NCBI GenBank assembly: GCA_016934535.1
Contig: JAFGSQ010000002.1
Span: forward strand, 1 to 48,059
Length of the DNA stretch: 48,059 nt
Direction: 5' to 3'
Source of the DNA: a candidate division WOR-3 bacterium
GTDB taxonomy: Bacteria > SDB-A
Below are positions 18,178-31,600 of this stretch, piece by piece. Made by a program: the position numbers and the translations under genes. Position 1 is the first letter of the stretch, and every line of letters begins with the position of its first letter. The notes under the pieces are model-generated. The model searched no databases. It saw only the letters and a program-made list of their open reading frames with translations, and was not told the DNA's origin.

Positions 18178-18210
18178 AAAAAAAGGGGGGTAAAAACCCC
18201 CCTTTTTTTT
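18178..18210 (-). terminator. Strong intrinsic terminator ending the pilin operon
   Basis: Read on the minus strand: an A run, six G, a six-base loop, six C, then seven T (G/C arms at 18185-18190 and 18197-18202). It begins directly after the stop codon at 18210-18212. Confidence 0.92.
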
Positions 18211-21200
18211 CATCTTACGTGAATGAATTTCCCGTTCTCTGAACCGAAGTCGGTCTGCATCATCCAGAAATAAGTGCCGGCCGAAATGTTTTCTCCGGCG
18301 TCGTCCCTGCCGTCCCATCCGAGGAAGTGCGTTCCTGCAGGGAGGAAAGTCTCGACACTGCGGATCTGTCTTCCCGTGATGTCGTAGACCAGCCATCTGA
18401 CAGAAGAATTTCCCGGCAGTGAAAGGCGTACTGAAACTTCATCTTTGAACAGGTTGGGTGAAGCGAGTCTGACAGAAAACACCTGCTGGCTTCCTACAGC
18501 TCCCGTGGAAGTTTCGATGTCCACCCTTTTTTGTGTTTTCAAAACGAGCCTGTAAGCGTCCGGGAGATCACCGGTGGAATTTTTTCCTCCGAGCAGGAAG
18601 AAATCGTTCACCTGGACTGAATCTGAAGACCCTTCATTTTCCCGCGAAATCAAAGAAGCGTTCGAAAGGACAATCGGAAGGTCGGTCATGTTGTACCATC
18701 CGTATCCGTTTTCGTATAGGAAGGAATTCGCCGAAAATGTCCCGGAATCTTTTCCGCCCGCAAAGAGCATGAAAGATCCTGAAGAACCCGCTGAAATCCC
18801 TTCCCTGTTAATCAGCGGTGTCCTGTAATCGGTCTGCCAGTTGATCACCACGGGAGAAGCTGGATTGACCCTGCCGAAATATACGTTGCCTCCGTAGATG
18901 TCCCCTCCGGCAAACACTATGCCGTCTTTAATGCCAACGGCTGTTCCACCTTCAAATCCTCCGGGAAGAGGCGTAGCGCCGATGAATTCACCCGAGTTTT
19001 CGTCGTAGAGGAAACACAGCGGTTTACCGCTCAGGTCGCTTTCGACTATATAAAGATAATCTCCGCCTATCCCGCTGAATCCTGCGAGAGTCGGAGAAAC
19101 GATGTTTTCAGGCAGATCCGCGGTTTCGAAACTCCCCGTTATCTTGTCGAAGATTATCAATTTATTTTCGAGAGCAGGGTCTTCTGATCTCATGTAAATT
19201 CTGTCCGTTGTAACGACTCCCTGTGCGTCTGTTATTCTGTATGGAATCGAAGCCGTGACGGTCCAGGTGTTGCCGTTAACGTCGTATTTCATGTGGACTG
19301 TATCAGCGAACACGTTGAGGTCGCCGTTCTCGTCAAACCACGGGACCGGACCTGAAACTGAAACCGGCATGTCGGCTATCTTCTCCCAGGAGGGTAAAAC
19401 GCATCTGATGGAGTAAAGCGACGTGTCATTGGAAGGATTCTGATCGCCCGGATACTCGATTATTATTTTTTTAACGTAGTGACGGTCTTCCGAGAGCGTG
19501 ATGTTTCCGAAATCAATCACGGCGCTGTCAAGATAAGCGAGACCGCTGACCGTGCGGACTTCATCCATCAGGACTGATCCGTTGCTTATATCTGTCACCT
19601 GAGCTCTGACAGTGAAATCCGCCGCCTGGGTTCCGTTGTTCCTGACAGTCGCCACAACATCATTGCTTCCCGAGGGCAGGAATTCTCCCTGAATATTGGG
19701 ATTGCCTCCGACTACAAAAGCGTCTTTGCTTTCTGAAGAATACAATCTTATGTTGTCTATGACGCAGGCTCCGTAATTCAGCCGGGAATAATAGACAAAC
19801 GCGACCTCGATCTTCGAAGCGTTGGCGAAAGAATCGCTGACGTCAGCCGAATCGAGCGCTCTGAAACTCGGAGTCGTCGCTCTTAAGTATGTCTTCACTG
19901 TGTACCAGGACGACCACACGCCTTCTTTCATTCCCGAAATCAGTACTTTTATCGAGTCGTACTGATTGTTGAATCCTATTCCCCAGACGAAATACTGAAG
20001 GTCTATTGGATTCCACTCCGCGGGGGATATTATAGTGTCGACGAGAGGGACGTTGTGTGAAGAAGTGGTTCCGATCCACGCGCTGTAATTGCCTGCGTAG
20101 TCGAGTTCAAGAGAGCTTATCGTCCCTTCGTCTCTTATGTTCCACCCGTTGGGCCAGTTGTTGGTGACAGTGTGAATCCAGTCCCATTTCGACTCATCTT
20201 CGAAGTTCCAGTTGATCTCGTCGACGTAAGGCCTGTTGAGAAGCCACACGTTGTCCAGTCCGAAAAACCTGGTGTCCGAAGTGCCGTCTCTGTGAATGTA
20301 AATAACTCCAACCTGCACGCTGTCGGCGTCCGCGAGTTCCGGAATTTCCTGATAAAACCAGTTAGCGGCCGTGTTTGCCGTGTACATGTAGGCTTGAAGC
20401 CAGTCTCCCCACACAGTGTTTCTGAATGTTCTGAACATAACTATCGCAGTGTCTCCCTGGATGGTTGTGCTCTTTCTCAGGTACGCAGTCCAGCAAAGAT
20501 ATTTATAATCAACAGCCACAGGCGCGGGAGGCGAATACGTCGTGTCGCAGACGTAGACATTTCCCGTTCCGATGGCCCACATGCTCCAGTTGTCCGAATT
20601 GGGCATGGTCACGCTGTTGTACGTTGAGGAAAGTCTTTGCCACGTTGTGGAGGTTTTCCATCCCTGGGTTCCCGGTTCGAACGTCCAGGGCGGGTCGAAG
20701 TATCCGGAAACTCCTATCTCGATGTAATGGGCGGGGGACCATCCTCCCATCAGCAGAGTGTCTGTAACAAGCCTCGCTCTCGACCTGACAGGGTATAAGC
20801 CTTCTGCGCTCCACTGGTGAAGCGAAGTCCTCGTCGTGTCCCACGCGGAATAAGCCCCGTCTCCCCAGTCGAACTGGTATTCAACCTGACCGAACGGAGA
20901 ATGCGCTGAATCAGACAGAAAAGTATAATTCGTATTTATGTATCCCCACGCGGGTCCCCACGGACTGTGCAGAGGGCCGACAAGAGGAACAAGGAATGTA
21001 TCCACCCTGACGTCGTCTATGTAAAATCCCGGTCCGTTTGCCGTCGTGCCGCTGTTGTCGGCCAGATTCCAGAGAATTTTCAGATCAGTCAGCGCTCTCA
21101 GCGGAGTGAGATTGACGCTGTAAAGAGTCCAGACGGCCTCGGTTCCCGTCCAACCCGGAAGCGTTATGCCCAGGGCCGACACGTTGAAAGTGCCGTTATA

Positions 21201-23243
21201 CACGGGGGCTATTAGATTTTGAGGAACAGTGTCCCAGTACATGCCGTCATAAAACCAGCTCGTCACCATTGCGGCGGAACCGTAGAACATAGTGACGCCG
21301 TCGTAATTGTATCTGCTGTCGTACCACATCCAGAAATACATCACCGATGAATCGGGCGACGAGACGTCTATGCTCGGCAGGGCAAAATAACTCGCGTCCG
21401 TATGATATATTCCGTCGAGGTCGGTCGCGGCCACATTGTAACCTGTTTTTGCCCCTAAAGGACCGGAAAACGGAATACCCACTTCCCAGTCTCCTGAAAT
21501 CAAATATCCCGCCGTATCCCAGGAAAATTCATAACCCCAGTAATAAATTGTGTTCTCGTTGAGAGCCACGGCTATGTGCGGAGGAGACCACGCCGACATC
21601 AGCGTAGTGTCGCCTGCGTCCCTAATCCTTGTCCTTATGTAGTATGTGCCGACTTCACCGTACGTCTTCGGCTGAATGTGCTGGACACTCCAGCCTGAAT
21701 AAGTTCCGTCCCCCCAGTCGAACTGGTACTCGGTCGGATTGACTACAATGTCGGATGTGAAATCATAAGAAGTCCCGGTTATACAGGTGTCCGGGCCCGT
21801 AGGCGCCGCAATCGGGCCGGCAATAAGCATGGCCGTGTCTATCCTGATATCATCTATGTAAAATCCGGCCTGATTCCCCGTAGTTCCGTCGTTGTCGCCG
21901 AATCTCCATAAAAGTCTTAGATCCTGCGAGTGCCTGTAAGGAGTCAGGTCTACTTCGTACAGGGTCCACAGCGGAGAAGAGCCTGTCCAGCCGGGCATAG
22001 TGGTACTCGTCCACGTTACGTTGTAACTGCCGGTGTAAGCAGGGACTATGCTGGCGCTAGGAACTGTGTCCCAGTAATAACCGGCGTTGTCCAAACCCCA
22101 GGTGAAAGAATCGCTTCCAACCCACAGGTTAACGCCGTCGTAATCTTGTCTTGAATTGTACCACATCCAGAAATACAGCTTCAGCGAGTCGCACATCGAA
22201 AGATCCATCTCCGGAGTATTCAGCCAACTGGCGTTAATGGAGTAATTTCCGTTGAGGTTTGTAGCCCAGACGTTGCCGCCGCTTCTCGCATCGAACGGTC
22301 CTGAATTCGGAATCCCCCACTGCCAGTCGCCGAGCTGGTGCAAACCGACGAATCCGCCGTCGTCGTATTCAAATCCCCAGTATCTCGCCGTCCTCGGCGT
22401 CACCATTATGGAGACGAAGGGAGGAGACCAGTTTGAGAACAAAGTGCTGTCAGCGGCGTCTCTTATTCTGCTCCTAACAAAATATGAACCCGGTTCGCTC
22501 CACTGTTTTGTCTGTGTGTTCATTATGTCCCAATCGGAATATGTTCCGTCCCCCCACGAGAACTGGTATTCATAGCTTCCTGCCACAACTTCCGAGGTGT
22601 AAACATAATCGGTGTTCACAAGACCGCTGTCGGTTCCCGTCGGCGCAGTCGCCGGGCCGGGGATGTTGCCAAGTTGAGAAGTTCTCAAAGACACGTTGTC
22701 GAGGCCGAAATAATAATCGGACCCCCATGTCGTCCCTCCTCTGTAGGAGAAACCCAGCTGAATCGTGTCAGCTCCCCTCGCATAAGCTGTTATGTCTATA
22801 GAGTCCCATATCGAGTAATTCGTGCCGAAATAAAACTGCAGCTGCTGCCATTCCGTCCATGTGCCGGAAACGCATCTTCTTACAAGCACTGCCGCCGTGT
22901 CGGCGTCCCTGCCTGTTCTGTATCTGTATCCTATTGTGTATTTGAGCCACTGTGTGTAAAAAAGCGAATCTGAAATTTTCGGAGAATACAGGGTGTCGCG
23001 CAGTGGATAGCTTCCTGCGCGGTTACTGCAAATCCACATACTCATTGTAAGAGGGTCGAGAGGTCTTATGCCTTCCTGATCGTAGACCCTCCATTCCCAC
23101 CTGCGCGGCCAGTTCTGACCCTGGATTCTTTTTGCCGAATTCCAGCCGTCCGTCCAGGGATTTGTTTCGAAATCCCAGAAATGATAAGCCGACAGCGCCT
23201 GAACCGCCGTCAGCAATGTGAGTACTATCAATATTTTTTTCAC
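18210..23243 (-). CDS. Giant secreted repeat protein with PKD-like/MAM-like modules and C-terminal FlgD-type domain
   Basis: 1,677 residues from a GTG at 23243 preceded by GGAGGGGGAA. Signal peptide about 1-19 (MKKILIVLTLLTAVQALSA). Residues ~20-190 form a jelly-roll-like module ending FGLDNVSLRT. Two full tandem units (195-470 and 476-749) each pair a PKD-like part (YQF-WGDGTYS-W) with a MAM-like part (SGPxxAxxGxN, YDGV, GFYIDDIRID); a third PKD-like part lies at 756-845. More jelly-roll modules follow to ~1240, then a Kelch-like stretch (~1280-1560), and a FlgD-type ending (LVYDITGRQIRS, LGWDGRDDAGENISAGTYFW, KFIHVR). It starts 14 bp after the PilY1-like gene in the same transcript, suggesting an exported adhesin or surface protein linked to pili. 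Function unproven. Confidence 0.8.
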   Translation of the reverse strand: MKKILIVLTLLTAVQALSAYHFWDFETNPWTDGWNSAKRIQGQNWPRRWEWRVYDQEGIRPLDPLTMSMWICSNRAGSYPLRDTLYSPKISDSLFYTQWLKYTIGYRYRTGRDADTAAVLVRRCVSGTWTEWQQLQFYFGTNYSIWDSIDITAYARGADTIQLGFSYRGGTTWGSDYYFGLDNVSLRTSQLGNIPGPATAPTGTDSGLVNTDYVYTSEVVAGSYEYQFSWGDGTYSDWDIMNTQTKQWSEPGSYFVRSRIRDAADSTLFSNWSPPFVSIMVTPRTARYWGFEYDDGGFVGLHQLGDWQWGIPNSGPFDARSGGNVWATNLNGNYSINASWLNTPEMDLSMCDSLKLYFWMWYNSRQDYDGVNLWVGSDSFTWGLDNAGYYWDTVPSASIVPAYTGSYNVTWTSTTMPGWTGSSPLWTLYEVDLTPYRHSQDLRLLWRFGDNDGTTGNQAGFYIDDIRIDTAMLIAGPIAAPTGPDTCITGTSYDFTSDIVVNPTEYQFDWGDGTYSGWSVQHIQPKTYGEVGTYYIRTRIRDAGDTTLMSAWSPPHIAVALNENTIYYWGYEFSWDTAGYLISGDWEVGIPFSGPLGAKTGYNVAATDLDGIYHTDASYFALPSIDVSSPDSSVMYFWMWYDSRYNYDGVTMFYGSAAMVTSWFYDGMYWDTVPQNLIAPVYNGTFNVSALGITLPGWTGTEAVWTLYSVNLTPLRALTDLKILWNLADNSGTTANGPGFYIDDVRVDTFLVPLVGPLHSPWGPAWGYINTNYTFLSDSAHSPFGQVEYQFDWGDGAYSAWDTTRTSLHQWSAEGLYPVRSRARLVTDTLLMGGWSPAHYIEIGVSGYFDPPWTFEPGTQGWKTSTTWQRLSSTYNSVTMPNSDNWSMWAIGTGNVYVCDTTYSPPAPVAVDYKYLCWTAYLRKSTTIQGDTAIVMFRTFRNTVWGDWLQAYMYTANTAANWFYQEIPELADADSVQVGVIYIHRDGTSDTRFFGLDNVWLLNRPYVDEINWNFEDESKWDWIHTVTNNWPNGWNIRDEGTISSLELDYAGNYSAWIGTTSSHNVPLVDTIISPAEWNPIDLQYFVWGIGFNNQYDSIKVLISGMKEGVWSSWYTVKTYLRATTPSFRALDSADVSDSFANASKIEVAFVYYSRLNYGACVIDNIRLYSSESKDAFVVGGNPNIQGEFLPSGSNDVVATVRNNGTQAADFTVRAQVTDISNGSVLMDEVRTVSGLAYLDSAVIDFGNITLSEDRHYVKKIIIEYPGDQNPSNDTSLYSIRCVLPSWEKIADMPVSVSGPVPWFDENGDLNVFADTVHMKYDVNGNTWTVTASIPYRITDAQGVVTTDRIYMRSEDPALENKLIIFDKITGSFETADLPENIVSPTLAGFSGIGGDYLYIVESDLSGKPLCFLYDENSGEFIGATPLPGGFEGGTAVGIKDGIVFAGGDIYGGNVYFGRVNPASPVVINWQTDYRTPLINREGISAGSSGSFMLFAGGKDSGTFSANSFLYENGYGWYNMTDLPIVLSNASLISRENEGSSDSVQVNDFFLLGGKNSTGDLPDAYRLVLKTQKRVDIETSTGAVGSQQVFSVRLASPNLFKDEVSVRLSLPGNSSVRWLVYDITGRQIRSVETFLPAGTHFLGWDGRDDAGENISAGTYFWMMQTDFGSENGKFIHVR
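20709..22661 (-). repeat. Tandem coding repeats inside the giant secreted protein
   Basis: Unit 1 spans 21834-22661, unit 2 spans 20997-21818 and a partial third unit 20709-20978. The units align over the motif W-G-D-G-x-Y-S-x-W and, for units 1 and 2, over LDG/LNG-Y, FWMWY-SR-YDGV, PGWTG, LTP-R and GFYIDD. Similarity is clear at protein level and partly visible in DNA around the aspartate/tryptophan motif. Confidence 0.85.
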
Positions 23244-23257
23244 TTATTCCCCCTCCG

Positions 23258-26014
23258 TCAGTAAACTTCGTTCCAATAGACGTATTTCTTCTTAAAGCCG
23301 GGGCCGGTAATTGTTCTTATTATCGGGCCGGAACTCGTCATTACTATGACGACAGGACCGTCGGGTCCCACTGTCACCTGAGGAGAAGATGGAATTCCTA
23401 TGTGCCCGAGGTCTATGGTCTCGACGAGTCTACCCTCCAGAAGCGACGCGACATACATCCTCGCGTAGCCGGCGCCGATGTCGCACGGCCCGGCTTCAGC
23501 TGTGTCCGGAGCGAAAGTCGTCCAATAGACGTTGTTGCTGTAAATGAGAGGGAGGGAGGTCACTTTTTCACCGGGATGCGTGTGCCTGTAGTAAAATCCA
23601 TTGTCTCCCGGAGCAGAAGCGGTCCCTGTCAAAGCGGCCATGTCGCTCATGTCAGCCGGTAAACCCGCTGTCGGAGGGGACATAAGCATGAAAAAATAAC
23701 CGTATCTGGTCGTATCCATGGGATTGTCCCTGTTCCCTGAGCCCCAGCAGTACCAGTATTCTCCGCTGAAATCCTGCGCGACGGCCACGGGGAAAAAACA
23801 CGCCATGTCGGCGTCTGCCGGCGCTCCGGTAGTAGCGCTGAAAGCTGTCCTTATAGACCAGTTGCCGGGATTTGTGTCCGATTCTGTGTCCATTATGAGA
23901 AGGTTTCCGGCAAGGTCCGGAGCTATAACATTGTCTACAAATCCGTTTATGTTCATGTCCGTCATAGCGAGCGAAGCGGCAATTCCGTTGCTGTTGGGAT
24001 TTTCCCATCCTTTGGCCCATGCGGTATTTTCTTTGAGAGCCCAGAAAGCGAAAAAATCTCCCGTGTCGGGAACGAAAGAGCCTGCCGTGTCGGGCGCGTA
24101 GCCGCCTCCTATGAAATAACCCCACATCTGTATTGCCGAATCGCTTCCGACGGGGTCTGTGTCTACTCTGAATTGCCCCGCTGTAGGCTGTGACCAGGTG
24201 TCCGCGAATCTTTTGTACAAACCTCCTACGAGCGTGCCGGATATCTCCGCGAGAAATTTAGGATACTCGGAGGAATCCGGATTTGTCGGAACATAAGTTA
24301 TGTCGAGAAGTATATAATTCGGTCCTCCTTCTCTCTGTCCGACAATCAAAACAGTCCGCCAGTCGTCGGCGTCTTTTAACCCGTTTCCGTTGACGTCCGA
24401 CCAGAGGTCGGCCGCCGTCACCGGACCGTCGAGGATGTAAGTATGCTGATTGTCGAGAGCCCATATTTTGAGCCTGTTCATTGCAAATCTCGGCACCCAC
24501 GCCCATACTTCTTTTCCTGTCGAGGCGTCGAAACAATGGAGAACTCCCGTGTTAGTTCCGACATAAACCCGTTTTCTCTGATCCCTGTAAGCGTTGTTTT
24601 TCCTGAAATGCACATACGAAGGGTCTCCCGTGTAGAACGGGCTCGGCGCTCCGATCATCAGGGGAGCGCTGTGGAAAATGTCGCCAATTTTCCAGCCGGG
24701 AGTAGCAGAGCTGTATCCTTCTCTCGTTCTCTGAACAATGAGATCTTTTTCCCACGCCGAAAACACGTTGACATCCGAAGGAAGCACGTTAAGAAAACTG
24801 AATTCGGTCTTGGCTCCCAGATTGTTTGTAAAAAATATGTTCCTCGATGAGGAAGGCGTCTGCTGAAGCGATTCGCCGGCCGTCCATATTTCCGAGCCCA
24901 GCATGGTGTCGCCAGTGAAGACGACGGCTCTCAGCTGGCCGTCCCAGAATCCTCCTGATTGAGGCCTGAAAGTCGCGTAGACAATCGCCGTGTCGCTTAT
25001 CATCGTCCTGACTACAGGAACACTGGCGGGTGAAAACGAGAAATTGTTCTCGAGAATGGATTGGAATATGTTCTGAAGGGAATTCGCGAGTTCGTCGGCG
25101 GTCTGCGCTATATACGCGTAACCGTCGCAGTAATGATAAGAGGGGGGAAGTGCGTGGTATCCGGTACCGTGAGCGGATCTCGGATTGTACCAACCGTTGG
25201 ACGATCCCCATCCGGAGGGAATCGGCTGAGGCCAGGTCCACGGGTTGTGGACGTGTGTGTGAGGTGGATTGTACTGCAAGTCCGAGTAATTGTATTTATC
25301 GGGATTGTCAGTTCCCGACCAGTAAGCCGCCCAGTTGAGTTCGTTTCTTCCTCTCTGTGTTATGCCTGTGCCGAAGCCTACCAAAAAGACAGGTATGTCT
25401 CTGTCTCTTGTGCTTATTGCGGCTTCCCTTACTATACTCCAGCTTCCGCGCCATTCGTCAGACACGGTTATCTGTGAATAAGAAGCGCTCGTTCCGAAAC
25501 CGTTGGATTCTCCGTCAGTGACGAAAATCAGATAATAACTCCTGCAGTCGAGATCGGGGTGAGTCGTGTCGTAGTTATGTATGTAGTTGGAAGAGTAATA
25601 AATAGCAGGTCCATTGGGAGTGTAGCCGCCGTTTGTAGTGTAGTTCATGTGCGACCATATTGTCGAATAGGGAGTGCCGAAAGTGTCCGCCCTGAGACTT
25701 CCCGTAGCTTCTCCGGGAAGATAAATGTAAGGGCCGGGATTAAAAGTTCCTGTCGGCGTGTTGTAGAAAAAACCCGTCGCCAGATCGACTCCCAGAATGT
25801 CCTTGTCCGAATCCTCTACGGTGCCGTCGCCGTCGGCGTCGAGAAGATTTTTCATGACGGCGAGGGCCTGCGTTATCCTCGTGCCCGACATGCTTCCCGA
25901 TCTGTCGAGGAATATCATTGCGGCAGGTTCAGCCGCTACCCTGAAAAGGACTTCGTCGTTAGCGGCCGACAACGCGGGAAGGAAGAGCAGCAATATAAGC
26001 GTTTTCCATTTCAT
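23258..26014 (-). CDS. pilY1: PilY1-like protein: von Willebrand A domain plus PilC/PilY beta-propeller
   Basis: 918 residues from the ATG at 26014, chosen for the AAGGAGGGAAAC site and a following signal peptide (MKWKTLILLLFLPALSAA). Residues ~30-330 form a VWA domain with MIDAS DRSGS (Asp37, Ser39, Ser41), a Ca-binding-like DADGDGTVEDSDKD loop, and an IFVTDGESN segment. Residues ~430-900 are the PilY1 propeller: VYVGTNTGVLHCFDASTGKEVWAWVPRF, and a DVNGNGLKDADDW calcium loop before RTVLIVGQREGG. PilY1 proteins act at the type IV pilus tip in adhesion and mechanosensing. It follows the small secreted protein and minor pilins in one operon. Confidence 0.88.
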   Translation of the reverse strand: MKWKTLILLLFLPALSAANDEVLFRVAAEPAAMIFLDRSGSMSGTRITQALAVMKNLLDADGDGTVEDSDKDILGVDLATGFFYNTPTGTFNPGPYIYLPGEATGSLRADTFGTPYSTIWSHMNYTTNGGYTPNGPAIYYSSNYIHNYDTTHPDLDCRSYYLIFVTDGESNGFGTSASYSQITVSDEWRGSWSIVREAAISTRDRDIPVFLVGFGTGITQRGRNELNWAAYWSGTDNPDKYNYSDLQYNPPHTHVHNPWTWPQPIPSGWGSSNGWYNPRSAHGTGYHALPPSYHYCDGYAYIAQTADELANSLQNIFQSILENNFSFSPASVPVVRTMISDTAIVYATFRPQSGGFWDGQLRAVVFTGDTMLGSEIWTAGESLQQTPSSSRNIFFTNNLGAKTEFSFLNVLPSDVNVFSAWEKDLIVQRTREGYSSATPGWKIGDIFHSAPLMIGAPSPFYTGDPSYVHFRKNNAYRDQRKRVYVGTNTGVLHCFDASTGKEVWAWVPRFAMNRLKIWALDNQHTYILDGPVTAADLWSDVNGNGLKDADDWRTVLIVGQREGGPNYILLDITYVPTNPDSSEYPKFLAEISGTLVGGLYKRFADTWSQPTAGQFRVDTDPVGSDSAIQMWGYFIGGGYAPDTAGSFVPDTGDFFAFWALKENTAWAKGWENPNSNGIAASLAMTDMNINGFVDNVIAPDLAGNLLIMDTESDTNPGNWSIRTAFSATTGAPADADMACFFPVAVAQDFSGEYWYCWGSGNRDNPMDTTRYGYFFMLMSPPTAGLPADMSDMAALTGTASAPGDNGFYYRHTHPGEKVTSLPLIYSNNVYWTTFAPDTAEAGPCDIGAGYARMYVASLLEGRLVETIDLGHIGIPSSPQVTVGPDGPVVIVMTSSGPIIRTITGPGFKKKYVYWNEVY

Positions 26015-26024
26015 GTTTCCCTCC

Positions 26025-26558
26025 TTACCTCGTGTCTGTTGAATTCGTGAGATCGACAACGACGGCTACGGGAAGGCAAGCCTTGCCCGAACCGAGCTGT
26101 ATTTCCATCACGGTGTAATAAATGCCCTCAGAAACAAATTTTCCTTCTTCGAAATATACGGCGTAATGCCAGGCGTCCCTGTTTAGTATCTTTCCCATAA
26201 ATGAAATCTCGGTGTTGTCGGGAGACCTTAAAGGGAATCCCGGTTCATATCCTTTTAGACGTCCGATCTCAAAACCGTACTCGTCCGGTCCGTGATAATA
26301 AACGATGACCGGGTCGAAGACAAATATACCGGAGGGGAGAGAGGGGTCACGATTCGTCTGGTAATCTTCGAGAACGGCTTTTCGGATATCGTCTGTTTCA
26401 AGGGCAGTCGAAGAGACGGAGGGACCGGCTGTTCTCAAAGGGATCCATTTGACCCGCTCTCTCTCCTGCGGAGGGTTCATGTCTTCGTTCTGATCGAACG
26501 CCGAAACGCTCTGAAAGAGAGACGCCGCCAAAAAAATTATCAATACTGTTTTAATCAT
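26025..26558 (-). CDS. Secreted protein of unknown function in the minor-pilin operon
   Basis: 177 residues with a clear signal peptide (MIKTVLIIFLAASLFQSVSA). No family recognised. The mature part is acidic to neutral with aromatic beta-strand patterns (IFVFDPVIVYYHGPDEYGFEIGR, WHYAVYFEEGKFVSEGIYYTVMEIQLG) and a single Cys. AGGAGGAAAC precedes the ATG. It sits 10 bp before pilY1 and 16 bp after the pilX-like gene, so it is likely an accessory part of the pilus assembly or secreted cargo. Confidence 0.7.
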   Translation of the reverse strand: MIKTVLIIFLAASLFQSVSAFDQNEDMNPPQERERVKWIPLRTAGPSVSSTALETDDIRKAVLEDYQTNRDPSLPSGIFVFDPVIVYYHGPDEYGFEIGRLKGYEPGFPLRSPDNTEISFMGKILNRDAWHYAVYFEEGKFVSEGIYYTVMEIQLGSGKACLPVAVVVDLTNSTDTR

Positions 26559-26574: not shown

Positions 26575-27018
26575 CTACGGATAACCGGTGGTTCCGCCGG
26601 GCACTGGCGCCGCAGTGGTTCCCACCAATATCTGTGAACGACCTCTGCGCGGAGAGGATATCTGCTCTTCGCCCGTTATCTTGTAAGAGTAATTCAAAGC
26701 GACGAGTGCTCTTTCGTTAGCGGTCCACGATGAAGTGTAACCGGGAAGAATTCTCGTCGTCTTTGTCATAGTGTCGACGTCGCATCTGACATTGCCAATC
26801 GAAAAAGAGTCTCCGTGGTCGGGTTGATAGACGGTTCCAAGCGTTGCCGTCACTCTTTCTGCCCCGGCTTCGGTCCCCCTGAATGCCTGTGTTTTGTGTT
26901 TAATTACATCGGTTATCCGCATGTCCGATGTCGCGAGCATAAACGCCGCTCCGACGAGAAGAGCTCCGGCGACAAGAATGCTCAGCGCTAGAATCAGAGC
27001 TATTCCTTTTCTTTCCAT
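26575..27018 (-). CDS. PilX-like minor pilin
   Basis: 147 residues. The N-terminus MERKGIALILALSILVAGALLVGAAFMLATSDMRI, followed by KTQAFRGTEAGAERV, matches the PilX/PilX_N pattern: hydrophobic helix, then an Ala-rich segment ending in a conserved Glu-Ala-Gly. Unlike its neighbours it lacks the Glu5 of standard prepilins, as in PilX/GspK-type initiators. GGGGGGCAG precedes the ATG. Fourth gene in the operon, 9 bp after the pilW-like gene. Confidence 0.75.
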   Translation of the reverse strand: MERKGIALILALSILVAGALLVGAAFMLATSDMRITDVIKHKTQAFRGTEAGAERVTATLGTVYQPDHGDSFSIGNVRCDVDTMTKTTRILPGYTSSWTANERALVALNYSYKITGEEQISSPRRGRSQILVGTTAAPVPGGTTGYP

Positions 27019-27027
27019 CTGCCCCCC

Positions 27028-27633
27028 TTACATCCTGCTTCTTATGGTCACGATGCGACTGAATGTTATCGTGTCCGCTGAAGTTTGATTTCTTACAGCC
27101 CTCTGATTGTAGGTCGTCACCCTGAGTTCGACGTGAGTGACGGCGAGAGGATCGATTGTTATTGAACCGTTTACGTCCAATGGAACTATGTCAAAATTAT
27201 CAACTCCCGGAATCAGCATATTGTATGTGTACGCTCCGGCACTGTACCTTATGTTGTATACATTTCTGGACGCTGCGTCATATATTATGCCGAAAGTCTC
27301 CTGCGCCGTGTCTAGAGAACCGTTGCCGAAAGTGGCTTCAGGATAGACGTCCGCGTAATAACAAAAAGAGTCGTTGCCTACAGCGCTGTGGTAAAGTTTG
27401 AAAACCTTGAAAATCGTGGTGTCCTGAAATTCTCTCGTGTTTCCCGGTATCGCCCTCATTTCTTTCGCGGCGATCCTCAGGATGGCCTCCGCGGATTGTA
27501 TGGCTTCCGACCTTCCTTCGATGATCGACTGATGATTGCGTTCCTGCGTGTAATAATAGACCAGGACACCTATCATCGCCAATCCCATAGTAAGGGCGCC
27601 GAGAAGCTCTATAAGTGAAAATCCTTTTTTCAT
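27028..27633 (-). CDS. PilW-like minor pilin (prepilin)
   Basis: 201 residues from the ATG at 27633, selected because GAGGTG lies 6 nt upstream and gives a short leader. Class III prepilin peptide MKKG^FSLIELLGALTMGLAMIGVLVYYY with Glu5 after cleavage. The mature part (about 200 residues with one Cys and a beta-rich C-terminal half) fits PilW-type minor pilins that form the pilus tip with PilV, PilX, FimT/FimU and PilY1. Located 5 bp after the pilV-like gene. Confidence 0.82.
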   Translation of the reverse strand: MKKGFSLIELLGALTMGLAMIGVLVYYYTQERNHQSIIEGRSEAIQSAEAILRIAAKEMRAIPGNTREFQDTTIFKVFKLYHSAVGNDSFCYYADVYPEATFGNGSLDTAQETFGIIYDAASRNVYNIRYSAGAYTYNMLIPGVDNFDIVPLDVNGSITIDPLAVTHVELRVTTYNQRAVRNQTSADTITFSRIVTIRSRM

Positions 27634-27638
27634 TTCTT

Positions 27639-27989
27639 TCACCTCTCAGCTACGTAAGTTTGTATCGTGTCGTATACTGTCTGACCCGATCTGTTCCTCC
27701 AGGAATAAATAACAGACAGGCTTTTTGCCCTCAAACCTGCCGTGTCGGGATTGACCGTCCACGTCATTCTTGTCGTACCGAAAGTGGAATCTCCGCTGGT
27801 TATCAAGTCGTAATCTATACTCTTTATCCATTCCATGAAATCTTCGAGGTCATTGATGGCCTTTTTTTCGATCCTGACGCTCAATTCCGCTTCCATCGTC
27901 CTCACTCTCGCCGCTCCGAGCGCCACAACCCCTATGGCGAACAAAACGACAACTACGAGGACTTCAAGATAGGAAAAGCCTTTTTTCAT
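27639..27989 (-). CDS. PilV-like minor pilin (prepilin)
   Basis: 116 residues from the ATG at 27989, which follows GAGGGAG. Leader MKKG^FSYLEVLVVVVLFAIGVVALGAARVRT with Glu5 intact. Short globular part containing TSGDSTFGTTRMTWTV, similar in size and pattern to PilV-type minor pilins (MTWTV strands are typical). It lies 10 bp after the first pilin gene. Confidence 0.82.
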   Translation of the reverse strand: MKKGFSYLEVLVVVVLFAIGVVALGAARVRTMEAELSVRIEKKAINDLEDFMEWIKSIDYDLITSGDSTFGTTRMTWTVNPDTAGLRAKSLSVIYSWRNRSGQTVYDTIQTYVAER

Positions 27990-27999
27990 AATCACTCCC

Positions 28000-28461
28000 T
28001 CAGTATTTGACTATTCTGGCGATTCCGGTCGCAGGAATCACTTTTATAGAGAGTTTTCTTGTTCCGCTCGCAATCATAACTGAATCTCTCGGAGACGTTC
28101 CAAGAGCGTATGTTACGGCTCCTGTCGGCAGAAAAAATATTTCTCCGTAATATCCGGTATTGAGAGTGACATTGCTCGGGATTTCTCCAGCCGTGCCCAA
28201 GGAATGGGCAGAACCGGCTATACCGCCCTGCCATTTGCAGAGTTCGTATTTACCGGAGGGACTGTTTATTCTGACTAACACTGTGTCTGCCCTGGTTATA
28301 GCAAGTTCTCTCGCTTCCCTTACGGCTCCAACAATCTGTCTCGTCGCTCTGTCAACTTTGTCGTTCAAAACCCTGACGAGAGGAATCGATATAGAGACTA
28401 TCAAGCCAATCAGAACGACCACAACCATTAGCTCAATAATCGAATACCCGTATTTTTTCAT
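28000..28461 (-). CDS. FimT/GspH-type minor pilin (prepilin), first gene of the operon
   Basis: 153 residues from the ATG at 28461 behind GGAGGTCCAG. Leader MKKYG^YSIIELMVVVVLIGLIVSISIPL with Glu5, followed by a GspH/FimT-like body: helix with VGAVREARELAITRADTVLVRI, then beta strands including GEIFFLPTGAVTYA. FimT/FimU proteins are minor pilins at the tip of type IVa pili. The predicted sigma-54 element at 28494-28510 would give a start about 22 nt upstream of the ATG. Confidence 0.85.
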   Translation of the reverse strand: MKKYGYSIIELMVVVVLIGLIVSISIPLVRVLNDKVDRATRQIVGAVREARELAITRADTVLVRINSPSGKYELCKWQGGIAGSAHSLGTAGEIPSNVTLNTGYYGEIFFLPTGAVTYALGTSPRDSVMIASGTRKLSIKVIPATGIARIVKY

Positions 28462-28493
28462 CTGGACCTCCAAAATTACTTGACTTACTTAAC

Positions 28494-28510
28494 TGCAATA
28501 TCTTTGCCAA
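28494..28510 (-). promoter_or_regulatory. Sigma-54 (RpoN) promoter candidate of the minor-pilin operon
   Basis: Minus strand TTGGCA-N6-TTGCA. The -24 GG and -12 GC are exactly 12 positions apart as required, and the match to YTGGCACGrNNNTTGCW is complete except two positions. Transcription would start near 28483, leaving a 22-nt leader with the GGAGG site. No convincing sigma70 promoter was found in the same gap. Confidence 0.7.
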
Positions 28511-28603
28511 AGTAAATTGCCTGTAATGGATTTTATAAGTTTTTTGAAACTGCGGTTTACACAAAAGTACGGATATAGGGAAACGGGTTTTAGCGTAATA
28601 ACA

Positions 28604-28639
28604 TGAAAACTTTTTCACTTGTGTGAAAAAGTTTTCACA
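28604..28639. promoter_or_regulatory. Tandem dyads, possible enhancer sites for a sigma-54 activator
   Basis: Two dyads lie side by side: TGAAAA-CT-TTTTCA (28604-28617) and TGTGAAAA-AG-TTTTCACA (28622-28639). Their centres are 20 bp apart, about two helical turns, and 127 and 147 bp upstream of the predicted sigma-54 start. As a unit they also form a 15-bp-arm hairpin, but no T run follows on the minus strand, so an activator site is at least as likely as a terminator. Confidence 0.5.
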
Positions 28640-28651
28640 ATAATGAAATAG

Positions 28652-28685
28652 CCGCACGGAGACGCATCAAAGCGTCTACGTGCGG
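28652..28685 (-). terminator. Stem-loop downstream of the RND efflux operon
   Basis: CCGCACG (28652-28658) and AGACGC (28660-28665) pair with GCGTCT (28672-28677) and CGTGCGG (28679-28685), loop ATCAAA, one internal mismatch. It begins 6 bp after the RND stop. The following sequence is T-rich but not a clean T run. Confidence 0.6.
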
Positions 28686-28691
28686 TCTTCT

Positions 28692-31600
28692 TTAATCGCT
28701 TTCGGTTATGTCTACGGGTTCCAGGTCTGCGGGCATTTTACCCGCCCTGTGAATGAACGTATAGACAACAGGTATCACTACGAGAGTCAGGAAGGTCGAA
28801 AAAAGAAGTCCGAATATTATCGGCCAGACCATTGGACCCCAAAATTTGTATTTCATACCTATTCCGAGCGCGAGGGGCAACATGCCTCCCATCGTCGTTA
28901 CTGATGTCATCAGAATAGGCCTGAGCCTGACAGGGCCGGCTTTTCTGAGAGCCTGATACAAGGGAACCCCGTCTTTCCTCAGTTTATTTGTGTATGTTAC
29001 AAACACTATAGCGTCGTTTACAACGATTCCTACAAGAGCGATCATGCCGATAAACGGCATCACGCCGAAATGGTTCCTGGTCAGCAGAAGCCCTATCATC
29101 ACTCCCGTTATGGCAAACGGAACGGTGAACATTATTATGAAAGGATCTGAAAGCGATTGAAATTGAATGACCATTATTATATAAATAAGCGCAAGACCGA
29201 CGATAAGAGCGATTCCGAGACTGCTGAAATCTTCTTCCATCTGCTGTTTGTCGCCGGTTATGTTTATTGTATATCCCGGCGTCTGAATAGAGTCTATGAA
29301 CGGTGTCAATTTTTTTATGACTTCGATAGACGTGACACCGTAAACATCTGAACTGACAGTTACCTGTCTTTTTCCGTCAACCCTGTTTATCATCGAAAAA
29401 CCCGAAGTGACGTTGACTTCGGCGACCTGTTCGAGAGGGACTGAAGATCCGGCTCCAGTCGGTATGGGAAAAGACCTGAGAACGTCTAGGGTCTTGTCAG
29501 CTTCTTCAAGCTCGACCCTAACCTTTATCCTGTCGTCTTCAATGTTTAATTCCGTCGCGTCTGTTCCGTTGAAGGATACAGCTACGGATTGAACAATATT
29601 AGAAGGAGTAATTCCGTAGTAAGCCGCTTCGCGTCTTTTGATTATCACCTCAACTTCGGGGGAGCCCGATCCGAAATCGTCTTTTACGTTACGAGTTCCT
29701 TCCTGCTGGCGCAAAAACTGTTTGACTTTGAAAGCCAAATCCATCAACACGTTTATGTCGTCGCCTCTGATCTCAACCTGTATGGGTGCCCCCGAAGGAG
29801 GACCCATGCTCTCGCCTTTCATTTCTATTCTCGCCTCGGCTATTTCGTGTCTGACGGAGTCGATTTTCGCAAGAAGTATTTCTCTGATTTCCAAGTCTTT
29901 TTTGTCGGAGTCTTCATAGAGACGCACTTCAATCTGAGCCGTGTTTTCGCTTATGTTCGACGTGTATTTTTCAACTTCGGGAATATCGGCTATAAGGGTC
30001 TCGATTTTCTTGGAAATTTCATCCAGGTTGCTGATGGGCGTTCCGTTCGGCACTGTAACATTGACCGTGAACTGATCGAAGCCGCTCGAAGGCCAGAGCT
30101 CAAACCCGACAACAGGCAAAAGGATCAGCGAAAGGACAAAAGCAGTCACTGAGATGAGCAAGGTCTTGGTTCTGTGAGTCAGCGCCCAATCGAGTGTTTT
30201 CCTGTATGCTTTCATCATCTTTGAATTTACCCATTTATCAGTTCTTTTGGCTGATTTTTTGTGATATACGGCGAATCTCGAAGCGACGGCCGGAATTACA
30301 AGATGGTCTACGAGTATCGAAGCAGAAAGGGCTATTATTACTGTTATCGGAATAAGTTTCATGAATTCGCCTGTGACACCTTTAATCATGAACATGGGAA
30401 AAAAAGCAGCCATCGTAGTCAGAGCCGCGGCCAGAACAGCCCCTCCGACTTCGTCAATTCCCTTTCTCGCAGCGCCGACCTTGTCGTATCCGTACTCAAG
30501 ATATCTGTACGTACTCTCGACGACGATTATCGCTCCGTCGACTATCATCCCTACGAGAAGAATGAGCGAAAAAAGAGACATGTTGTTGAGAGAATAACCC
30601 ATAAGATAAAGAGCCGCGAAAGACACGCAGATTATCAGCGGAAGAGATATCATTACGAGGACGGCGTTTCTCCATCCGACTCCAATGACGAGTATTAAAA
30701 TCACAAGAATCGATCCGAACACGGCATTCTGCTTAAGCTGGTTGAGGTTCTCGTTTATGTAATCGGCCTGATCGAAAGTGATGTCGAAAGTCACTCCGCT
30801 GGGTAGATTTTCCTGAATTTCCTTCAATTCCTCTCGTATGTTTTTTGAAATTCCAATCGTGTTTCCATTGGTTTTTTTATAAATTGCCAAAGTGACGGAC
30901 GGGTTGCCGTTAAATCTCGAAAATGAAACCGTCTTTTCGAGAGTGTCGAGGACCGTCGCGACATCCGACAGATAGACGGGTCCGTTCGCCGTGACAGTTA
31001 TAATAGTGTTCTCTATATCCTCCCTCGATCTGTAAGCTCCCAAAACCCTGAGTGTGTATTCTTTTTCTCCGAGATTTATGTTTCCGGCCGGCAAGTCCAT
31101 GTTGGAGCTCTTTATGGCTCCGATAATAAGAGGTACGGTCAGTCCGAATTCTCTGAGTTTGTCCTCTCTCAGCAAGACCATGAATTGTCTTTCCCTGCCT
31201 CCGAAAATATCGACTCTCGATACGCCGCTGATGCCTTCGAAAATCGGTGATATGTCGTCTGCGTATTTTTTCAGGTTTTCGTAGGATGTCCTGCTTCCGT
31301 TTTCGCTTTTCAGAGTGAGGAAAATAACCGGTATTTCACTCAGTTTTATGTCCCTTATGATTGGGTCCATTGCGTCATCAGGAAATTCGTTTTTGACCCG
31401 GTTTATTATTTCCTCTACGTCGCGTTTCGCCTCGTTGTTGTCAACTCCAATTTCAAATTCATACCAGATCTGAGCTCCGCTGTTCGAAGAATATGAATAG
31501 ACGTGTTTCAGGTCGTCTATTCCCCTGGAGTCCTCCTCGACAAATTTCGCTATCTGATTCTCGACCTCCGCGGGCGCGGCTCCCGGATAGGGAATCGTCA

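Follow-up and report, generated by a model that had tools for sequence, protein, structure and literature searches.

The minor-pilin/PilY1 tip operon of a candidate division WOR-3 bacterium is very probably driven by a sigma-54-dependent promoter that has a tandem pair of activator sites upstream of it, as judged from its sequence and from conservation among relatives. The window analyzed here comprises 48,059 nucleotides (positions 1 to 48,059 of contig JAFGSQ010000002.1, assembly GCA_016934535.1). It was studied together with its own genome (G000), three relatives (G001, G002 and G003) and 56 other genomes that served as outgroup and control. The PilY1 proteins of the two same-genus relatives share 84 and 83% identity with that of G000, and that of G003, a member of the same family, shares 63%. 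All four genomes are draft assemblies, and the bacteria are uncultured. For the -24/-12 element we used the consensus TGGCAC-N5-TTGCW in the window, exact TGGCA-N6-TTGCW in G000 and exact TGGCAY-N5-TTGCW in the relatives. Paired dyads were searched as TGAA-N6-TTCA-N4..7-TGAA-N6-TTCA, with the same pattern read backward as the control.

The putative -24/-12 element, TTGGCAAAGATATTGCA, lies at 28494–28510 on the minus strand and is conserved in all three relatives. Within it, TGGCAAAGATATTGCA (28509–28494) is the sole match of the window to the consensus at no more than one mismatch, and it keeps the GG and GC dinucleotides 10 bp apart. At up to two mismatches the window holds 15 matches against 15.3 expected, which is the chance level. 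A comparable element arose in about 0.1–0.2% of shuffles of the 250–290-bp upstream stretch. Given the -24/-12 spacing, transcription is predicted to start at 28483 (minus strand), 12 nt past the C of the -12 element, leaving a leader of 22 nt to the first ATG (28461), with a Shine-Dalgarno sequence GGAGG at 28467–28471 of the same strand. Scanning of 28400–28800 found no sigma-70-like promoter. The first-pass annotation of this DNA had already placed a correctly spaced -24/-12 element and a 22-nt leader here, and our calculation reproduced both; its coordinates hold, but it left unsaid that the elements run along the minus strand. The element is retained in the four genomes as TGGCAAAGATATTGCA, TGGCAAAGGTTTTGCT, CGGCAAAGATATTGCC and TGGCATGGATCATGCT, unlike the remaining intergenic DNA, which is unalignable among the relatives. 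Since the consensus occurs genome-wide at near-chance frequency when one mismatch is allowed (67/80 versus 68/83 for the control), it was not taken as proof by itself. Exact matches are rarer: G000 has seven, five of them just ahead of genes, namely the tip operon, pilA, a NifX-like gene beside an enhancer-binding protein (EBP) gene, a gene for a secreted-type protein and a response regulator gene. The relatives yielded 19 exact matches, versus none in the control.

The genes downstream, all on the minus strand, follow the fimU/pilV/pilW/pilX/pilY1-type order of a classical minor-pilin operon, so that the promoter indeed stands ahead of the minor-pilin operon to which it had been assigned. The first gene (28000–28461) encodes a FimU/GspH-like minor pilin with a prepilin N-terminus and a GspH match. 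It is followed by genes for a PilV-like (27639–27995) and a PilW-like minor pilin (27028–27642), both assigned from a weak prepilin motif and gene order only, a PilX-like protein with a weak PilX_N match (26575–27018), a product without an assigned family (26025–26558) and a PilY1-like tip adhesin with a beta-propeller domain (23258–26059), which has orthologs in the relatives. In G001 the pilY1 match (G001:C23:27142-29928) contains one in-frame TAA in the aligned stretch, yet an open frame of 918 residues is listed there. Only 14 nt behind pilY1 begins a gene for a 1677-residue protein with a C-terminal FlgD Ig-like domain (18210–23243), which probably belongs to the same transcript and may be a tip-associated adhesin. 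A gene behind pilY1 is conserved in the relatives as well. On the upstream side, an RND transporter gene of the same strand ends at 28692, and a terminator-like hairpin without a long T run (28652–28685, minus strand), predicted by folding, separates it from the pilin operon. The whole 55-nt stretch including the flanks of this hairpin folds at -26.2 kcal/mol (z -7.3), and the scan of 28400–28800 did not call it.

Between this hairpin and the promoter lie two dyads, both on the minus strand. The proximal one (28604–28617; 18-bp frame AGTGAAAAAGTTTTCATG) is centered at -127.5 from the predicted start, and the distal one (28622–28639; TGTGAAAACTTTTTCACA), a perfect TGTGAA-N6-TTCACA that is unique in the genome, at -147.5, in agreement with the two dyads 20 bp apart and about 125–150 bp upstream that had been described before. 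About 90 bp of AT-rich DNA separates the proximal dyad from the -24/-12 element. The box has the form TGTGAA-N6-TTCACA, which is of the TGT-N12-ACA type, and literature searches found no description of it. Both window matches to TGAAAA-N2-TTTTCA fall at these dyads, and the further exact matches in G000 all lie within open reading frames. Each of the four genomes has a single double dyad, always located downstream of the RND gene and ahead of the minor-pilin promoter; among the 56 other genomes only one has it, in an unrelated setting. Read backward, the pattern gave no match in the four genomes and a single match in one of the 56. Likewise, G000, G001 and G003 each have one perfect box, always at the tip locus.

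The arrangement of the dyads is also conserved. From G000 to G003 they lie at -127/-148, -107/-127, -128/-149 and -203/-224 from the predicted start, that is, at -107 to -149 within the genus and farther upstream in G003. Their centers are 20, 19, 20 and 20 bp apart, or two helical turns, and all eight boxes have an N6 spacer. In G003 the locus is split over two contigs: C171 carries the dyad pair at its end, right after the RND gene, and the promoter is on the pilin contig. Because these contigs overlap by 24 bp where the first ends and the second begins, the arrangement appears to be the same as in the other genomes. Conservation of the promoter together with the dyad pair in the three relatives places the arrangement beyond chance. 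The idea that AT-rich palindromes happen to stand beside a sigma-54-like string can draw on the near-chance frequency of the consensus noted above, but co-location in four genomes, the uniqueness of the double dyad and its absence from all 20,000 shuffles made for each genome refute it, leaving a negligible probability.

The boxes are in all likelihood EBP sites, as suggested by their sequence and placement. The activator-dependent switch of the tip operon put forward in the first-pass annotation presupposes a sigma-54 gene and a promoter kept among relatives; rpoN is present in all four genomes (TIGR02395 above cut-off), and all four retain the -24/-12 element along with the dyad pair. Because multiple TGT-N12-ACA dyads also stand upstream of that element, as conserved tandem predicted sites at -107 to -224, activator-dependent transcription is the best reading; sequence and conservation support it, and activation itself we infer. 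In the proposed mechanism, a phosphorylated two-component EBP would bind the box pair as a cooperative oligomer, the two centers, 19–20 bp apart, being expected on the same helix face. The bound EBP would then loop over 100–200 bp to the polymerase and open its sigma-54 complex at 28494–28510 at the expense of ATP, with RNA predicted to start near 28483.

The fibre gene appears to follow a different box. In G000, G001 and G003 a separate sigma-54 promoter precedes pilA (G000:C15:54326, G001:C35:7656 and G003:C257:1350). These three and four secreted-protein promoters carry a TTGCA-N3-TGCAA dyad 78–101 bp before the -24 element, with six of the seven matching at 9/10 or better. Thus pilA and several secreted-protein genes are predicted to form a second sigma-54 regulon sharing this dyad. 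None of the seven promoters checked contains the TGTGAA box, and the tip operon promoter lacks the TTGCA-N3-TGCAA box, so the tip operon does not share the activator box of pilA from the same genome. Since the two boxes are mutually exclusive, a different EBP probably acts on the tip operon, and tip and fibre are probably controlled separately.

We therefore surveyed the candidate readers. G000 encodes six sigma-54 activators, which fall into groups A–E, and only groups A, B and D are common to all four genomes; no NCBIfam match above cut-off told the EBPs apart. Group A is a two-component EBP whose gene lies beside lptD together with that of a membrane histidine kinase. Group B is PilR, encoded together with PilS behind two pilB-like ATPase genes, pilT and pilC in each of the four genomes. 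Group D is a PAS-EBP; the NifX-like gene next to it has a TTGCA-N4-TGCAA dyad in its promoter. The recognition helices of B and D are alike, and that of A is different. Group C (C23, C57) was rejected as the box reader, being absent from G001 and G002, as was group E, which is missing in G003 although that genome has the dyad pair at the end of C171. If PilR controls pilA as it does elsewhere, it is probably not the reader, because the pilA promoters have no TGTGAA box; overall, we consider it rather likely that the reader is not PilR. Group A is the best candidate, given that only A, B and D occur in all four genomes and that B and D go with TTGCA-type boxes. By this elimination we tentatively assign the tip boxes to the group A EBP; no further perfect TGTGAA-N6-TTCACA box was found near its own genes. 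The full division of labor, with PilR acting through TTGCA-N3-TGCAA on pilA and secreted proteins and the lptD-linked envelope two-component EBP acting through the TGTGAA-N6-TTCACA pair on the tip operon only, is offered even more guardedly. The suspected dissimilarity of the dyad to PilR sites fits the different box found before pilA in the same genomes. As to the unpaired sigma-54 activator suggested along with it, a PilS-PilR pair adjoins pilB/pilT/pilC, so that a second two-component EBP is more likely.

Several further features of the EBP genes were observed. The PAS-EBP without a receiver domain stands before a NifX/NifB-like gene of the dinitrogenase iron-molybdenum cofactor family in G000 (C8:13855) and G001 (C12), where the latter gene has a sigma-54 promoter and a TTGCA-N4-TGCAA box; in G003 (C103:5398) the PAS-EBP is only near such a gene. 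The genes of group E and its kinase precede that of a response regulator containing a DUF4388 domain (G000:C40:95-1669; G001:C21), and in G000 the gene of this regulator has an exact sigma-54 promoter. G003 alone encodes very large EBPs, with open frames of 1667–1764 residues (C114, C208 and C353), the N-terminal part of which reads as TPR-like; two of them adjoin exact sigma-54 sites.

Among the alternatives, PilR itself might read the TGTGAA boxes, placing the tip operon in the classical PilSR regulon and leaving the TTGCA boxes to another EBP or a co-factor. PilR is indeed present in every genome that has the TGTGAA box, and its gene neighborhood beside pilB/pilT/pilC is the same in all four. 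However, pilA, the classical PilR target, carries the other box in place of the TGTGAA box in G000, G001 and G003, and the PilR recognition helix resembles that of group D, whose neighbor gene also has a TTGCA-type dyad. Accordingly, this reading is unlikely. Far less probable is an ordinary repressor or redox regulator acting on the RND or pilin genes, with dyads unrelated to the sigma-54 element. The half sites TGTGAA/TTCACA do resemble those of Rex (TTGTGAA-N4-TTCACAA) and CRP (TGTGA-N6-TCACA). Yet Rex requires a spacing of N4 and all eight tip boxes have N6, and CRP has N6 where the tip boxes have N8 between TGTGA and TCACA. Neither a rex gene nor its operator accompanies the tip operon: the Rex DNA-binding domain (PF06971) gave no match in the four genomes and was found in seven control genomes. 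Moreover, a position 100–220 bp upstream is unsuited to a repressor, and the tip boxes always accompany a sigma-54 site. Both readings were thus rejected for their wrong spacing, and Rex also for its missing gene.

The two dyads might instead form one long RNA or DNA hairpin, a terminator or processing site between the RND and pilin operons. They can cross-pair into a single long stem in G000 and G001 (-19.4 and -17 kcal/mol), but the cross-pairing core is lost in G002 (3/6) and G003 (1/6), where the arms of each dyad still pair with themselves (10/12 and 11/12) and fold as two weak hairpins. In addition, G000 already has a separate strong hairpin behind the RND gene, and no T run follows the long dyad hairpin. 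As the outer arms are conserved, the central six bases vary and the long hairpin fails in G002 and G003, the dyads resemble protein sites rather than a terminator, and the single-hairpin reading was rejected as most improbable.

Because pilus assembly is primed by minor pilins and PilY1, which also bear the tip adhesin, the timing of pilus formation and attachment depends on what controls these proteins. If tip and fibre have two different sigma-54 activators, the cell could set pilus number or adhesin separately from the pilin supply. A conserved single-locus box in an uncultured lineage provides a specific DNA target along with a short list of candidate regulators, and the idea of separate control is open to in vitro work that combines purified proteins with synthetic DNA and needs no culture.

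That sigma-54 controls the major pilin is textbook knowledge, and the mechanism proposed here is that of a textbook sigma-54 promoter. As in the PilS-PilR/pilA systems of Pseudomonas, Geobacter and Myxococcus, a sigma-54 promoter with upstream activator sites precedes a pilin gene, a PilSR pair adjoins pilB/T/C and the promoter of pilA is of the sigma-54 type; unlike in those systems, the target is the minor-pilin/PilY1 operon, with a TGTGAA-N6-TTCACA rather than a TTGCA-N3-TGCAA box. This box also differs from the GTCT elements and TGT-N11-AGA sites of Pseudomonas aeruginosa PilR; in that species, loss of PilR alters the expression of minor-pilin genes (PMC6058289). EBP sites of the TGT-N10-12-ACA class are known for NifA, FhlA and fifteen Clostridiales EBP groups, the latter mostly 100–250 bp upstream and usually multiple (PMC6615313). 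The tip boxes share the TGT-N12-ACA half sites, the multiple copies and the distance of 100–250 bp before the -24/-12 element, and they are distinguished by their inner bases GAA/TTC and by having a single target locus. For a dedicated sigma-54-type activator of a PilY1 operon we found one precedent, Myxococcus xanthus HsfA, which we take to be an EBP of the NtrC type. HsfA, of the HsfBA two-component system, binds directly to the pilY1.1 and pilY1.3 promoters and alters their expression (PMC9109919). Similarly, a two-component regulator distinct from PilR would act here on a PilY1/minor-pilin promoter, group A being set beside HsfA by role and not by orthology. HsfBA switches several PilY1 clusters against each other, whereas here one operon has one dedicated double box. 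The novel points are the lineage, the box and the cleanly separated boxes of fibre and tip.
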